A DNA stretch of 14,765 nucleotides from an uncultured Clostridium sp. (GTDB taxonomy: Bacteria; Bacillota; Clostridia; Clostridiales; Clostridiaceae), in assembly GCA_946575275.1 (NCBI GenBank), contig CAMNZV010000019.1:1-14765 (forward strand). The letters run 5' to 3'. The number at the start of each line of letters is the position of its first letter. Position 1 is the stretch's first letter. Shown one piece after another: positions 8,063-14,712 of this stretch. The position numbers and the translations under genes are program-made. The notes below the pieces were generated by a model. It was given only the letters and a program-made list of their open reading frames with translations, did not search any database and was not told the DNA's origin.

Positions 8063-8758
8063 ATGGCTAAGAAAATATTAACTATAGTTATAGGTACCCT
8101 GATGTCACTTTCTTTAGTAAGCTGTGGTTTTCAATCTAAAGTAGAAAGTACAAGTGAATCTAATAATGCTATTTCTATTGAAGAATCTTATGATAAGTTA
8201 GAGGGAACTTGGGCTGAAAATATAACATCATTGGAATTGACATCAAAATATAACGAGCTATTAAAAAAGGTTGAAGACAAAACAAAACAATATGGTTTAA
8301 AATATACAAAGGAAGAAGATGTTGTCAAGGGAGAGGGAGACAAAATAGAGAATTCAAGTTACATATATCTAGATCAAAAGGATCCAGAGAAAAATCGTAT
8401 GGAAAGTCTTTATTTTGGAATAACTTTCTTTGGTCAATCTAAGGAGACGGGTCAAATAGTGCTAAAAACTTCTTTGAATTTCGATGGGGATTTGGCGTTA
8501 AAAGATAGTGATTTTGATTTTGGGAAAACAGCGTTAGCATCTTATGGAGCATTATTAACTGGAGATGAAGATAGAGATTATTCTGATATTAATACACAAA
8601 TTAAAAATGTATTAGAAAGCGAAAGTGGAGAAGGAATAATTAAAAATAGCATTGATGGTTTATATGAAGAATTTACTGTTTCAAAGGATTGTATAGTGTA
8701 TAGACTTGAAACAAAGAAATTTGATTTCTTAAAAGGTGCAGAAACAATCGGTAATTAA
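8063..8758 (+). CDS. Putative lipoprotein of unknown function
   Basis: A 231-residue protein I do not recognise. The N-terminus is a lipoprotein signal: positive M-A-K-K, a hydrophobic stretch, then the lipobox L18-V-S-C21, so Cys21 should be lipidated and the protein anchored on the outer face of the membrane. The mature part is hydrophilic and acidic, has no cysteine pattern or enzyme motif I can name, and looks like a single globular domain. It has a clear ribosome binding site (GGAGGG about 8052-8057) and its own promoter upstream. The small RDD membrane protein follows 24 bases after its stop, so the two are probably expressed together. Confidence 0.85.
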   Translation: MAKKILTIVIGTLMSLSLVSCGFQSKVESTSESNNAISIEESYDKLEGTWAENITSLELTSKYNELLKKVEDKTKQYGLKYTKEEDVVKGEGDKIENSSYIYLDQKDPEKNRMESLYFGITFFGQSKETGQIVLKTSLNFDGDLALKDSDFDFGKTALASYGALLTGDEDRDYSDINTQIKNVLESESGEGIIKNSIDGLYEEFTVSKDCIVYRLETKKFDFLKGAETIGN

Positions 8759-9031: not shown

Positions 9032-10396
9032 ATGAAAAAAGGAAGCGAAATATTAGTAAAAATAGAAAAGACTGAATTCCCATCTATTGGTGTTGGAAAT
9101 CTTGAAGGTAAAAAAATATATGTAAAGAATAGTTTTCCGGGACAAGTTATAAGGGGAAAGGTTAAAAAGAAAAAAGCTGACTATGCTGAAATAAAATTAT
9201 TAGAAGTGGAAGAGAAGGCAGATTATGAAATACAGGCAAAATGTCCACATTTTGGTGTTTGTGGAGGCTGTTCATCTCAAACTCTAACTTATGAAAAGCA
9301 ATTAGAATTATTATCTGAAGAGGTAAAGGACCTGTTTGCAAATGCAAATTTACAAACAGGAACATATGAGGATATAGCCTTTAGTGAGCTTCAATATGAA
9401 TATAGAAATAAAATGGAGTTCACTTTTGGTGATATGGAAAAGGGCGGAGAATTAACTCTTGGAATGCATATTAAAAATAAATCCTTTGGAATTATTAATG
9501 TAGATGAATGTAAAATTGTTGATGAGGATTTTAGAAAAATAATTAAATCAACAGTTGAATATTTTAGAAAAACAAACTTACCCTATTACAGAGTAATGAA
9601 AAGGGAAGGTTATTTAAGGCATTTGGTTATTAGAAAGGCAAAAAATACTGGGGAAATAATGATTAATATTGTTACCACAACTCAGATAGATTTTGACTTA
9701 AGTGAATATACTGAAATACTTAAAAACATTGATTTTACAGGTAAATTAGTATCAGTACTTCATACTGAAAATGATTCCTTTTCTGATGCAGTTGTGCCAG
9801 ATAAGGTTAACATTTTATATGGTATTGATCATATTCAAGAAAATCTACTTGGACTTAAATTCAACATATCTCCATTTTCTTTTTTTCAAACTAATTCTAA
9901 GGGAGCAGAAGAGCTTTACAGTATAGTTAGGGATTATTTAGGAAATAGTGATAACAAGGTAGTATTTGATTTGTACTGTGGAACAGGAACTATAGGACAA
10001 ATTGTTGCTCCTAATGCAAATAAGGTTGTGGGAATTGAGCTTGTAGAAGAGGCAGTGCTTGCAGCAAGAGAAAATGCAAAGCTTAATGGATTAAATAACT
10101 GCGAGTTTTTACCTGGAGATGTAGCTGAAATTATTAAGACAGTTAAGGATAAGCCAGATATTATTATTTTAGATCCGCCAAGAAGTGGAGTTCATCCAAA
10201 GGCATTAGATTATGTTATTAAATTTAATGCTCCTGAAATAATTTATGTGTCTTGTAACCCTAAATCCTTAGTTAATGATTTGTCTGTTTTAGTGGAAAGT
10301 GGGTATAGGGTTGTAAAAACTAGGGTTAAGGATATGTTCCCTAATACACCTCATGTGGAGACGGTAGTAGGAATACGTCGCAAAGATACCTTATAA
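9032..10396 (+). CDS. rlmD: 23S rRNA (uracil-C5)-methyltransferase, RlmD/RumA family
   Basis: A 454-residue SAM-dependent RNA m5U methyltransferase. An N-terminal TRAM RNA-binding domain covers about 1-65. An iron-sulfur cluster motif follows, with C71, C77 and C80 ([10 protein letters not shown]) and probably C160. The SAM-binding domain shows D313-L-Y-C-G-T-G, D381-P-P-R-S-G and the catalytic Cys408 in Y-V-S-C-N-P. A C-terminal H-V-E-T-V supplies the usual catalytic-base glutamate. Length and motif order match the RumA/TrmA family. Which uracil is modified (U1939, U747 or both, in E. coli numbering) cannot be told from sequence, so the gene symbol marks the family. An AGGAG site lies about ten bases before the ATG. 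Confidence 0.94.
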
Positions 10397-10407
10397 TCCT
10401 TGAATTC

Positions 10408-10503
10408 ATGCACTTTACCAGCTTTTTTAACTTTAACACAAAAGACGATGATTTTAGAAATAAAGAGGTCATAAAAGGTGTTAAGGTAAGAGTTGGTATT
10501 TAA
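10408..10503 (+). pseudogene. Short open frame, possible 3' relic of a lost gene
   Basis: An ATG-started frame of 31 codons ends at TAA 10501-10503. The residues after position 12, including D-D-D-F-R-N-K-E-V-I-K-G-V-K-V-R-V-G-I, look like ordinary protein rather than random A+T-rich translation. There is no ribosome binding site before the ATG, and I do not recognise the family. A remnant of a gene end left by a deletion or insertion event downstream of rlmD is one explanation; a chance frame is the other. Confidence 0.3.
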
Positions 10504-10547
10504 TAGGGTGTGAGGGGATATGTTAGTGTAATTTTAATATGAAATAG

Positions 10548-10596
10548 AAAAAGACTATGAAGGAAGCTTTTTAGATAATAACTTCATGGTCTTTTT
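10548..10596. terminator. Terminator upstream of the ATPase-TIR operon
   Basis: AAAAAGACTATGAAG (10548-10562) pairs with CTTCATGGTCTTTTT (10582-10596) across 15 positions with one G-U wobble and a 19-base loop. The flanking A and T tracts would allow termination in either direction. It separates the lipoprotein-RDD-rlmD unit from the ATPase-TIR pair, so the latter needs its own promoter. Confidence 0.88.
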
Positions 10597-10751
10597 ATGT
10601 TTTAGAAAGCGAGATTGATGTTATTATTCATATAATAGTGTACAAGGATATATATATTGTGGAAGATTGTTGGTAATTCAGAAGGAAAATTAGGAGTTTT
10701 GTAGAATATTAATAATTGATTTACAGGAATTGACGAAAGGTAGAATTACTT

Positions 10752-13700
10752 ATGGCATATATTGATAAAATACAAGATGCTCAGAAAAAAGCATATAGTC
10801 ATTTAATTGCAACTAAAATTCTTGACTTAATGGATAATTTAAGGTTGAATTCCAATGGGAATGCTTCAAGGCGTTGGATATGGGAACTGCTTCAAAATGC
10901 AAAAGATGTTTCTTATGAAGATAGAAAAATTGTCACTAAAATAAATTTAGATACAAATAAAAAAATATTAGAATTTAGCCATAATGGGAAACCATTCACA
11001 TCCGAAAATATAACATTTTTAATTGAGCAAGTTTCCACAAAAGAAAGAGAAAAAAGTAAAGAAATTGCATCTAAAACGACAGGGAAATTTGGGACCGGAT
11101 TTCTAACTACGCATTTACTATCTGAAATTGTAACTATTAGTGGGGTATTGAAAGATCCTGATGAACCATATAAAAAATTCGAACTAACTTTGGATAGAAG
11201 CGGTAGGAATATTAATTCAATTATAGAATCGGTGGAACGTTCCATAGAAGAACTTAATAGTATTGATTTTACTCCAGATATGAAAAATTATTTTCCAAAT
11301 GATTTTAATACTAAATTTATGTATCAACTTGATGAAAATGGTGTCCTAGTTGCTGAAAAAGGTATTAAAGACATATTTGATTCTCTCATTTTTACATTAG
11401 TTTTTTTACCAGAGATTAAATCTGTTTATATTGATAATTTAAATGTTAAATATGAAGTGCTAAAAGATTATGAATATTTGAGCGAAAATATTAAACTTTA
11501 TACAGTAATTGAAACAGCTGGAGATATTATAAAACAGCATAAGATTATTGTTTTAAATAGAAATAACGTTACAATAGCAATTCAAGTAGAGCAAATTAAT
11601 AATCGAATATTTTTAAAGGAGTTTAATAGATATACACCAAGAATATTTTGTGATTTTCCACTTGTGGGAACAGAGAACTTTCCGTTTCCTACTATAATTA
11701 ATAGCCCTAATTTTAATCCTAATGAGCCACGTGATGGAATTTATTTAACTGACAATAATGATGAAAAGATTATTGAAAATAAATCAATTATGTTAAATGC
11801 ATTAGAATTATATTATGAGTTAATTGATTTTGCATCAAATGAAAATTGGGGAAATATGTACTTGTTTGCATCTAAGGTTAATTCAATATTAGATGTGGAG
11901 TGGCTTTCAAATAAATGGATTATAAACGAGATTAGTAACAAAATTAAAGATAAGCTTCTAACTGTTCCTATTATTGACACACAAAATGGAGAGAGAGTTG
12001 CAATAAAAAACGAAGAGGGTAAGTTTAACATTTGGTTTCCATCAAATAAAGATAAGACAATAAGAAATAAAATTTGGAAATTGTGTAGTTATTGGATACC
12101 AAGCAAGCTACCACTTAAAGAAGATATAGATAGTTGGTATGATGTCTTATGGGCAAAATGTAGAAATTTAACTATGGAAGAGTTAACAAGTAGGTTGCAA
12201 GAAAAAAAAGATATAAAATCTTTACAAGATAAGCTTGGTAGCTGTATAGATGTTATTGAATGGCTGAACTTATACTATGAATTATTAAATGATGAATCGA
12301 TTTTTATTGAAAATATTGTTGGGGATAAGTACTCAGTAATACCAAATCAAAATGGAGTATTAAAAAAAAGAACGGAGCTTAAAATTGACAAAGATATAGA
12401 GGAAGAGCTAAAAAATGTTTTATGTATTTTAGGTGAGGACTGTAGAGATTATTTAATACATAAGAATGTGTTAACTGGAGAAAAAATACAATATTATACT
12501 ATAGAACAAAAAAGTATTATTAATAAAATCAATGAGTTTCTTACAGAAAATTCCAACAAATTCACTAATGATGCTTGCTACTATTTAATTTCCTTATTTT
12601 CTAGTGAAATTGATTTTCCAAAAGAACGTGAAACGATATATAAATTTTGTAGAACTATTTTTCAAGCAAAAGTTAAAGATAAGAGAAAAATAGTTAATTG
12701 GTCTAAAAATATATGGGAGAATGTTGATAAAAAAGTAATTTTTAATTTGGTAATGGAAATATCAAAAAATAAAAATATAGAAAAGTTAACTGAAGAATTT
12801 ATGTTTACTGATTGTAGTGAAGCATTGAAATGGCTTAATAGTTTGATAACATTCCTTGTTGAAAATGGGTATGATTATTTAATCAATCATAGAGAAATGC
12901 CAATCTTACCAAATCAAAACGGTAATTTTGTTATTAAAGATGATTTGTTTCTTGATAATGGTGACATTGATAATGATTTAAAAGACATATCATATGATTT
13001 GGGTTATGACTTCAGAAAAGAGATGCTAAGTATGGATATTTTTTTAGATTTACCTCAAAATAGAACTAAGACTCAAAAAGATGTGGCAGATGAAATTTCA
13101 AATATGGTAAAAAAGAAACTGCATGAAGTACCAATAAGTGATGAAATAAAACAAATATTTAGAAAATTGCTCATTTGGTTTAATGAAAATGAGGAGAAAG
13201 CAAAAGAGTATTTTACAGATTTATATAAGAATAAGCATAAATTGTATGATGATGCTGAAATAGTTGAGAATATGGAAAAAGCAGCGAAATATGATGAAAT
13301 AATGGACAAGTTTAATATTAAAGACTATAAGAGTCTAGAAAAAATATTGGAGTCTACTACATACTACAATATGGATGAATCAAGTAATAAACAAGAAATA
13401 ACGGAAAATATTTTAGCACAATTGGGAATTTTCACACCTGAAGAATTGGAGGCTGCTTTCGGAAATAAAGTATTTTCAGATAATTTTATCCACGTTTCAG
13501 ATAAGGAACTTTTTAAATTTGAATATGTTCAAAATATTATTAAACGTTCAATAAATAATGTTTTTAGGCATTTAGAAAGTAAATCTGAATATAAATTGGA
13601 GGATTGTGAAGAAATAGCTAAAACCATTTTTTCTGTTACAAAAAATGATGAAGATATTTATATAATAATTAGACCGTCAGATTATGATCAAATAATAATT

Positions 13701-13850
13701 TATTATGATTCAGAAAAAGATTTACTAGATTATGAAAAAGATTGTGAATTATGGGTTGATGACGGCGTTTCAACTCCTCAAAAAATTACTTTTGGCAAAA
13801 TATTAAAAATAACTGGAGTAAATAAAATCCCACTTAAAAAGATAAGATGA
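10752..13850 (+). CDS. Large sacsin-like GHKL ATPase, putative defence protein
   Basis: A 1032-residue cytoplasmic protein with no membrane segment. Residues 1 to about 200 form a GHKL (Hsp90/sacsin-N-like) ATP-binding domain. The N-box is E45-L-L-Q-N49-A-K-D52; a G1-like loop reads S77-H-N-G80, without the usual Asp; the lid glycine motif is G112-K-F-G-T-G-F118. The middle has no named domain that I recognise, but three Q-N-G motifs in similar settings (411-413, 533-535, 722-724) suggest repeated modules as in sacsin-like proteins. The last 75 or so residues (I-I-R-P-S-D, then E-L-W-V-D-D-G) look like a separate C-terminal domain. AAAGG precedes the ATG. The AlbA_2-TIR gene follows after 16 bases. 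I infer ATP-driven sensing or switching of that partner; function is not established. Confidence 0.8.
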   Translation: MAYIDKIQDAQKKAYSHLIATKILDLMDNLRLNSNGNASRRWIWELLQNAKDVSYEDRKIVTKINLDTNKKILEFSHNGKPFTSENITFLIEQVSTKEREKSKEIASKTTGKFGTGFLTTHLLSEIVTISGVLKDPDEPYKKFELTLDRSGRNINSIIESVERSIEELNSIDFTPDMKNYFPNDFNTKFMYQLDENGVLVAEKGIKDIFDSLIFTLVFLPEIKSVYIDNLNVKYEVLKDYEYLSENIKLYTVIETAGDIIKQHKIIVLNRNNVTIAIQVEQINNRIFLKEFNRYTPRIFCDFPLVGTENFPFPTIINSPNFNPNEPRDGIYLTDNNDEKIIENKSIMLNALELYYELIDFASNENWGNMYLFASKVNSILDVEWLSNKWIINEISNKIKDKLLTVPIIDTQNGERVAIKNEEGKFNIWFPSNKDKTIRNKIWKLCSYWIPSKLPLKEDIDSWYDVLWAKCRNLTMEELTSRLQEKKDIKSLQDKLGSCIDVIEWLNLYYELLNDESIFIENIVGDKYSVIPNQNGVLKKRTELKIDKDIEEELKNVLCILGEDCRDYLIHKNVLTGEKIQYYTIEQKSIINKINEFLTENSNKFTNDACYYLISLFSSEIDFPKERETIYKFCRTIFQAKVKDKRKIVNWSKNIWENVDKKVIFNLVMEISKNKNIEKLTEEFMFTDCSEALKWLNSLITFLVENGYDYLINHREMPILPNQNGNFVIKDDLFLDNGDIDNDLKDISYDLGYDFRKEMLSMDIFLDLPQNRTKTQKDVADEISNMVKKKLHEVPISDEIKQIFRKLLIWFNENEEKAKEYFTDLYKNKHKLYDDAEIVENMEKAAKYDEIMDKFNIKDYKSLEKILESTTYYNMDESSNKQEITENILAQLGIFTPEELEAAFGNKVFSDNFIHVSDKELFKFEYVQNIIKRSINNVFRHLESKSEYKLEDCEEIAKTIFSVTKNDEDIYIIIRPSDYDQIIIYYDSEKDLLDYEKDCELWVDDGVSTPQKITFGKILKITGVNKIPLKKIR

Positions 13851-13852
13851 TG

Positions 13853-13857
13853 AAAGG
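13853..13857 (+). promoter_or_regulatory. Ribosome binding site of the AlbA_2-TIR gene
   Basis: AAAGG at 13853-13857, three bases after the ATPase stop, is nine bases before GTG 13867 and fifteen before the next in-frame ATG at 13873. Spacing therefore favours the GTG. An ATG at 13865 is out of frame and meets a stop after three codons. Confidence 0.5.
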
Positions 13858-13866
13858 AAAATTTAT

Positions 13867-14712
13867 GTGTCGATGAGATATGAAATTGAAAATTTAATTT
13901 CTAATATAAATGTAGCTTCAGTAATATGCAAACCAATATTAGTTAATTCCAAAAATATTGCTAAAATGATAAGTGCATTTTCAAATACTAATGGTGGTGG
14001 TTATATAATTTTTGGTGCAGAGTTAGATAGTGAAAAAATTAATATTCTAGGCTTAAGTAGAGAATTTTATGTAGATTCATTTATTGATAAAGCTATCAAT
14101 TTGTTAGAGACAAAAACAGAGATAGAATATGAATTTATGAATATTAATAATAATAATATACTTGCAATTAAAGTTTCAAAATCTAAAGAAATTATATTAT
14201 TTCAAAATAATAAATATATTATTGAAAATAATGAAATAACGAAATGTAAAGGAGAGATTATTTTGGATAAAACAAAAGTATTTATAGTTCACGGGCATGA
14301 TAATTTAGCAAAAGAAGAAACAGCAAGGTTTATTGAAAAACTTGGTTTTGAAGCTATAGTATTACATGAACAAGCAAGTGGTGGAGATACTATTATAGAA
14401 AAAATTGAGAGATATTCAAATGTAGGATTTGGAATTGTTTTGTATACACCATGTGATTTAGGGAAAAATAAAGATGGTGTAGAATTAAAGAAACGTGCTA
14501 GACAAAATGTTATTTTTGAGCACGGATATTTAATTGGAAAAATTGGACGTAAAAATGTATGTGCATTAGTGAAAGATGAAATAGAAAAGCCAAATGATAT
14601 CGCTGGGGTAGTATATATTGATATGGATACAAGTGGATCATGGAAAAGCAAATTAATATTAGAAATGAAAAATTCAGGTTATAATATAGACGCTAATCTA
14701 CTTTATAAGTAA
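13867..14712 (+). CDS. AlbA_2/Schlafen-like domain fused to a PF10137-type TIR-like domain
   Basis: A 281-residue two-domain protein. Residues about 5-125 resemble the AlbA_2 (Schlafen-related) domain, with I35-S-A-F-S-N-T-N-G-G-G-Y-I-I-F-G50 as its hallmark; this fold often binds nucleic acid. Residues about 136-275 match the TIR-like predicted nucleotide-binding domain (PF10137): V138-F-I-V-H-G-H-D145, V-L-H-E-Q, G173-D-T-I-I-E178-K-I-E, V-L-Y-T-P, R210-A-R-Q-N-V-I-F-E218 and a G-x-W near the end. Glu178 is in the place of the TIR NADase glutamate. No signal or membrane segment is seen. Relatives of this TIR-like domain act as immune effectors. Paired with the ATPase 16 bases upstream, a nucleotide-consuming effector role is a reasonable inference, not a demonstrated one. 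Confidence 0.86.
   Translation: MSMRYEIENLISNINVASVICKPILVNSKNIAKMISAFSNTNGGGYIIFGAELDSEKINILGLSREFYVDSFIDKAINLLETKTEIEYEFMNINNNNILAIKVSKSKEIILFQNNKYIIENNEITKCKGEIILDKTKVFIVHGHDNLAKEETARFIEKLGFEAIVLHEQASGGDTIIEKIERYSNVGFGIVLYTPCDLGKNKDGVELKKRARQNVIFEHGYLIGKIGRKNVCALVKDEIEKPNDIAGVVYIDMDTSGSWKSKLILEMKNSGYNIDANLLYK

Follow-up and report, generated by a model that had tools for sequence, protein, structure and literature searches.

A Tiamat-type ATPase and its AlbA_2-linked effectors: a candidate modular two-gene immune system

A sacsin/Hsp90-type ATPase gene and a gene for a TIR-containing protein lie side by side at the end of a 14,765-nucleotide contig from an uncultured Clostridium sp. (CAMNZV010000019.1, from assembly GCA_946575275.1, which is 71% complete and in 327 contigs; the whole contig is called the window below). 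Do the two genes form an immune system, and if so, which of their parts belong together? The two-gene layout given in a preliminary description of the window stands: the GHKL ATPase (1032 amino acids; 10752..13850, + strand), TmtA (Tiamat)-like over residues 1-606, is followed after 16 bp, according to the open reading frame list, by an AlbA_2-TIR effector (281 amino acids; 13867..14712, + strand; PF04326 plus PF10137) with a GTG start or, possibly, an alternative ATG at 13873. That description had also called the pair a candidate undescribed system, which holds only in part. PADLOC knows both proteins, the ATPase as TmtA (Tiamat) and the partner as PDC-S35 (five models matched, best E 2.4e-87), but these entries are separate, and a literature search of openly licensed PMC papers found no publication linking an AlbA_2-effector gene to a Tiamat or sacsin-type ATPase. 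It is this link of which we found no description: an ATPase of the Tiamat type that leaves the effector function to an AlbA_2 partner, with effectors that can be exchanged. Because AlbA_2 carries several kinds of effector, of which the PF10137 TIR is one, the conserved unit is an ATPase with a particular C-terminal domain (CTD) plus AlbA_2-X, not an ATPase plus a TIR.

The CTD spans about 140 amino acids (residues 893-1032; 13428..13847, + strand) and is proposed here as the docking domain for AlbA_2; the window matches its hidden Markov model (HMM) at E 4e-60, the seed of the model including the window's own sequence. A CTD profile was run on three genome sets: the family of G540 (Paenibacillus; 295 genomes, 10 matches), the class of G539 (Lysinibacillus; 398 genomes, 8 matches) and the class to which the window belongs (391 genomes, 3 matches, window included). 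An AlbA_2-effector, adjacent or fused, accompanied the domain every time (10/10, 8/8 and 3/3). Genome G598 is common to the first two sets. Further records came from G060, G051 and G066, from G543, G545, G546, G547 and G549, from IMG/VR contig L040 and from plasmids L020 and L021. Left uncounted were L010, whose contig ends in the ATPase and whose genome, G546, was counted via L014/L041, and G053 and G727, in which the contig end cuts the ATPase; in G637 and G640, the ATPase is split over more than one frame. Among the resulting 31 distinct CTD-bearing records, 29 had an AlbA_2-effector adjacent or fused and 2, both cyanobacterial plasmids, had none, so the pairing is indeed conserved. The nuclease loci L004-L007 are near-copies, and because several nuclease loci are of this kind, the 29 partner records are not 29 independent events. 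AlbA_2 alone is not diagnostic: its profile gave 12 matches in 398 genomes of the phylum, the window's own at 162 bits and the other 11 at 32 bits or less, and the stretches around those 11 weak matches held no CTD match.

For a control set, we searched the 295 genomes of the G540 family again, now with a model of the sacsin N-terminus; the line at 60 bits was drawn once the scores were known (the next match scored 53). Sixteen sacsin-type ATPases exceeded it, ten with the CTD, all of which had AlbA_2, and six without; matches below the line, mostly 590-700 amino acids long, are probably HtpG. One of the six, from G727, was left out as cut by the contig end, which gave five controls. No AlbA_2 was seen near any of the five in the 9.3-16.5 kb around each, of which one (L101, G783) has about 1 kb downstream. 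AlbA_2 partners therefore stood at 10/10 with the CTD versus 0/5 without it (Fisher p ~3e-4, calculated by hand, with near-copies reducing its true weight). Four of the five controls carry an enzyme-type domain in cis, NOV_C in L100, L103 and L104 and a helicase in L102, while no family was assigned to the C-terminus of L101; the CTD proteins instead have a separate or appended AlbA_2-effector.

These counts bear on the idea that Tiamat and PDC-S35 are two independent defence genes merely travelling together in defence islands. Each gene does have its own PADLOC entry, and PF10137 TIR proteins often occur where this ATPase does not: 1137 plasmid records match the partner (2 over 80% of its length among the best 40 of the 1137), and PF04326 is not listed for 42 of the best 120 of 7681 protein relatives. 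However, an AlbA_2 gene is adjacent or fused in 29 of the 31 CTD records whatever the effector and is absent beside all five CTD-less ATPases, and we regard mere co-travel as very improbable. As a separate observation made by eye, the sacsin-NOV_C control of L100 (606-7125, - strand) is followed by AAA/OLD-like and UvrD-like genes that recall Gabija, and a TnsD-like gene lies on the other side of this ATPase.

Is the window ATPase simply Tiamat, which is a single-gene system? Its fold resembles Hsp90 and sacsin. The ATP-binding motifs (10881..11108, + strand) comprise an N-box, WELLQNAKD (E45, N49), a G1-like HNGKPF and a G2-like GKFGTGF at positions 44, 74 and 111, and residues E45, N49, H77, G111 and F113-L118 are invariant in a 26-row alignment. 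The N-terminal sacsin/Hsp90-type ATPase region is common to TmtA and the window protein: in PADLOC, residues 1-606 match TmtA model PDLC03967 at E 2.2e-148, the best match covering positions 1-595 of the 1063 in the model, with a second, partial stretch at 426-775. An end-to-end match that includes the C-terminus was not found. For controls L103 and L104, the match to TmtA models runs through nearly the whole protein, NOV_C included, whereas the window ATPase ends in the CTD and gave no NOV_C match in Pfam, either as a whole protein or at its C-terminus. Nor does the single-gene character apply, since ATPases of the window's type have a conserved partner gene. With the C-terminal and single-gene features both tested and absent, the window ATPase is not plain Tiamat. 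Tiamat was grouped in 2023 with systems of unknown mechanism (PMC10482375, in excerpt).

The CTD also differs from the C-terminus of the best-matching TmtA model, and the same CTD plus AlbA_2 module is found on ATPases of two TmtA models, PDLC03967 (window) and PDLC03972 (L025). Among the best 120 of 1923 ATPases, the CTD profile picks up 114 at E < 1e-5, six of them weakly. These six are of the P0103 type, longer ATPases that are weakly akin to the CTD (profile probability 82, E 1.1e-5; HMM E 7e-7 to 3e-5); because of this weak link they are unusable as controls lacking the CTD and were left out of that set. P0103, P0106, P0108, P0109, P0111, P0113, P0116 and P0118-P0120 are ATPases of about 1093 amino acids whose C-terminus has diverged and which have an additional tail. 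The position of the CTD suggested a dead NOV_C (DUF3883) domain, a candidate that we rejected after a profile comparison with three NOV_C C-termini (probability 0.2); Pfam gave no NOV_C match in the CTD or in the P0103-type end. Shorter CTD-bearing ATPases (open frames of 803-887 amino acids) occur with AlbA_2-TIR_2 in L067, L068, L069 and L061 and may form a branch of their own within this design.

In the partner, an AlbA_2 (Schlafen-type) domain, the proposed adaptor (residues 1-125; 13867..14241, + strand; PF04326, E 1.6e-10), precedes a TIR domain of the CAP12/Pycsar type (PF10137; residues 137-254; 14275..14628, + strand; E 1.5e-39). The combination of a large ATPase with a TIR protein was correctly recognized at the outset, the TIR being of the CBASS/Pycsar type. 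Its catalytic glutamate is likely E218 (codon at 14518..14520, + strand) rather than E178, the residue that had been put forward for mutation. Residue E178 is invariant, yet it is set aside because E84 of SfSTING aligns with E218: the predicted motif R212-x-N214-x-x-x-E218 lines up with the R-x-N-x-x-x-E of 7un8, printed at 86, 88 and 92, which is 8 above the R78, N80 and E84 of the paper. Both R212 and E218 are present in 121 of 121 aligned rows.

Several known proteins share one part of this effector. As in CBASS Cap12/Pycsar (SfSTING), a PF10137 TIR with the catalytic-glutamate motif is kept, but Pfam finds no STING or cyclic-nucleotide-binding domain in the window effector, which has AlbA_2 there and an ATPase as its neighbour; Pfam also finds no cyclase among the four upstream proteins, the contig ending 53 bp downstream. 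PDC-S entries are single-gene candidates, and although the window protein matches the PDC-S35 models, an AlbA_2-TIR protein is here one among several kinds of partner of the ATPase. AlbA_2 occurs in animal Schlafen and SAMD9 proteins. The partner shares that fold, but the ATPase in our case is of the Hsp90 type and mostly a separate protein. Long-B prokaryotic Argonautes likewise have AlbA_2 (PF04326) fused to an immune protein; in the excerpted text of PMC6299218, however, AlbA_2 is read as DNA-binding, and no sacsin-type ATPase or TIR-AlbA_2 fusion appears.

The AlbA_2 end is common to the partners, whereas the effector end differs, being a PF10137 TIR, a TIR_2, a PD-(D/E)XK-like nuclease, a caspase or a helical domain. 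In the 29 paired records, we counted 13 nucleases (by alignment), 8 TIR_2 domains, 4 fused caspases, 2 PF10137 TIRs and 2 helical domains. Lysinibacillus fusiformis (L003) encodes an orthologue of the window's pair, with the ATPase at 10001-13078 and AlbA_2-TIR at 13097-13933. The TIR_2 group includes one of the SpbK type, one followed by GAF and one (G637) that is in pieces and under the Pfam cut-off. In the SpbK-type case (L061:1975-2832, G733), AlbA_2 precedes a TIR that matches the PADLOC spbK model at E 3.2e-63 over residues 106-284. The N-terminal 4-helix bundle of SpbK binds the phage portal (PMC12847820, in excerpt); AlbA_2 occupies its place in L061, and the window effector also has AlbA_2, not such a bundle, at its N-terminus. 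The helical effectors (L066:1949-3046 and L111:406-1503) have AlbA_2 fused to a helical-looking domain of about 230 amino acids, for which we found no Pfam match above the cut-off and no PADLOC match beyond AlbA_2; our guess, from the string RHLYSHRNG, is an HEPN-like RNase. In L110 (1923-3416), an AlbA_2-TIR_2-GAF effector runs off the stretch, its GAF match being under the cut-off.

The fused caspases unite all the parts in one protein. Pfam assigned a single ATPase-CTD-AlbA_2-caspase chain in G051 and G066 (both of the window's genus) and in G719, and the fourth case, G767, was assigned by likeness, having the same fused layout with a caspase-like match (Raptor_N) under the cut-off. Single chains of 1679 amino acids with a TmtA-type ATPase, the CTD, AlbA_2 and a caspase lie at L024:2228-7267 (- strand) and L025:2907-7946 (+ strand). 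Such fusions bear on the sign of control. The ATPase could act as a restraint, keeping the AlbA_2-effector inactive in the manner of an antitoxin or chaperone until phage attack on the ATPase sets it free; Hsp90-type proteins are known as client keepers, and partner dependence and fusions suit either sign. Single chains, and the enzyme-type domains found within the chain in controls, are more suggestive of a machine that couples sensor to effector, and we consider restraint unlikely.

How often has the effector changed? In a 41-row ATPase tree, in which 31 of the 41 pairings were inferred from equally sized contigs, the effector class (PF10137 TIR or nuclease) changed at least 2 times, as forced by well-supported branches, versus 9 changes in shuffles. 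The joining of L016 with the Paenibacillus group was flagged by the program as a possible long-branch effect, but a second nuclease pair (P0015, P0037) lies inside a TIR clade, apart from that join. In favour of a shared history of the two partners, distances between ATPases and between AlbA_2 domains correlate overall (Mantel r 0.84, 0/2000 permutations as high) and within effector classes (r 0.87-0.92).

Taking the domains and their relatives together, we consider it probable that the pair works as a modular two-gene immune system in which the ATPase senses infection, the CTD docks AlbA_2 and the TIR NADase is activated. The Hsp90/sacsin-type ATPase would monitor a sign of infection, its shape shifting with ATP. 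The CTD would then bind the Schlafen-type AlbA_2 of the partner, a step supported by the conservation, the control and the natural fusions. By analogy with proven TIR relatives, docking on an ATPase assembly would gather the TIRs and complete the NADase site (E218), so that NAD+ would be drained from the infected cell and phage growth halted at the cell's expense. The ATPase would thus be sensor and switch, the CTD the socket, AlbA_2 the plug and the TIR the weapon. An ATPase oligomer that gathers AlbA_2 tails would be a natural trigger because proven TIR relatives become active on close packing: SfSTING is a proven NADase activated by filament formation (PMC9402430, in excerpt), and SpbK is active on the portal ring (PMC12847820). 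Since the same plug bears a nuclease, another TIR type or a caspase in relatives, sensor and weapon would evolve separately. We also lean, by a small margin, towards a broader class of Hsp90/sacsin-type sensor ATPases whose C-terminal socket accepts any AlbA_2-plugged effector, be it an NADase TIR of either kind, a restriction-like nuclease, a caspase or the helical domain, with ordinary Tiamat, its enzyme domain in cis, as the hard-wired form.

Several observations weigh against this proposal. The Calothrix and Dolichospermum plasmids (L020, L021) encode a CTD ATPase with no AlbA_2 gene in the stretch seen; their partner may be elsewhere or absent. The module is rare, at 10/295, 8/398 and 3/391 genomes, and the CTD has no Pfam match. 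Among the best 120 of 7681 partner relatives, 86 (P0121-P0206) align over most of their length and 56 of these 86 are on contigs of at least 6 kb; at least 29 of the 56 share a contig size with one of the best 120 of 1923 ATPases, a pairing inferred from equally sized contigs, not from neighbourhoods that were read. Across effector classes, the distances between ATPases and between AlbA_2 domains do not correlate (r 0.07), unlike within classes, and because of this difference AlbA_2 and effector may be exchanged jointly rather than the effector alone. No ATPase match was found in 50,697 phage records, and an ATPase alignment was confirmed for 1 of 51 in IMG/VR, a single relative. The contig stops just past the pair, so downstream island context is beyond view. 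Finally, AlbA_2 may do more than dock, as phage-sensing bacterial Schlafen RNases are cited in PMC12839542 (seen in excerpt). The same RNases strengthen a different reading, in which sensing or RNase action lies with AlbA_2 (Schlafen cores bind and cut RNA) and the ATPase provides a platform for assembly; AlbA_2, however, is retained beside the CTD while effectors vary, which suits an adaptor, and we regard this reading as improbable.

Phage or plasmid cargo was a further candidate, rejected on scarce matches in phage, plasmid and IMG/VR collections: the ATPase matched 3 of 72,556 plasmid records, one over merely 11% of the query, and a CTD scan of IMG/VR confirmed 0 of 9 stretches. In these collections and at that sensitivity, the ATPase is not mainly a phage gene.

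The genes around the relatives favour an immune role; the defence neighbours were picked by eye, with no random-gene control. In L004, which was scanned, LmuC and LmuB (L004:7566-9970) lie directly upstream of the ATPase/AlbA_2-nuclease pair, and L005-L007 have two genes at the same places whose starts are almost identical to those of LmuC/LmuB in L004. No ordinary LmuA was seen between these genes and the pair in L004-L007, and the L004 effector matches the LmuA C-terminus at E 0.007. These four loci are possibly hybrids in which the pair serves as the Lamassu effector. No LmuB or LmuC was seen upstream of the window's own pair in the open reading frame list or by Pfam on four proteins, on which PADLOC was not run; downstream, the contig ends. 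Other neighbours include a Type I restriction-modification pair (L011), a TIR gene (L010) and an Mrr-type endonuclease (L013), as well as integrases or a resolvase (L003, L012, L014, L009); three more neighbours (L014, L016, L020) gave no PADLOC match.

Upstream of the window's operon, a stem-loop of 22 pairs with a 19-base loop and a T-rich arm (10540..10604, no strand assigned; RNA fold -22.2 kcal/mol, z -6.88) was matched in stability by 0 of 200 shuffles. Lying between the pair and the methyltransferase gene that precedes it, the hairpin probably serves as a terminator, as the preliminary description had claimed: it is very stable, but a consensus terminator scan, with a loop limit of 8, made no call there. 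Pfam assigned the four upstream proteins as a tRNA uracil-methyltransferase-type protein, a D-Ala-D-Ala carboxypeptidase, a helix-hairpin-helix protein and one without a family. Two genes 5' of the operon, 8063-8758 encodes a predicted lipoprotein (string LSLVSCG, by eye) with no confident family.

In this variant, the parts of a Tiamat-type protein can be told apart: the ATPase as proposed sensor, the CTD for docking, and effectors whose chemistry is known or can be recognised. It offers a clue to the possible workings of a defence family whose mechanism is unknown. If the proposed mechanism is true, it would account for the range of killers that accompany a single ATPase family. It would also point to docking as a function of AlbA_2, which animal Schlafen and SAMD9 proteins contain too; AlbA_2 would then be a bacterial immune adaptor, and SAMD9 and Schlafen might be its counterparts in animals.

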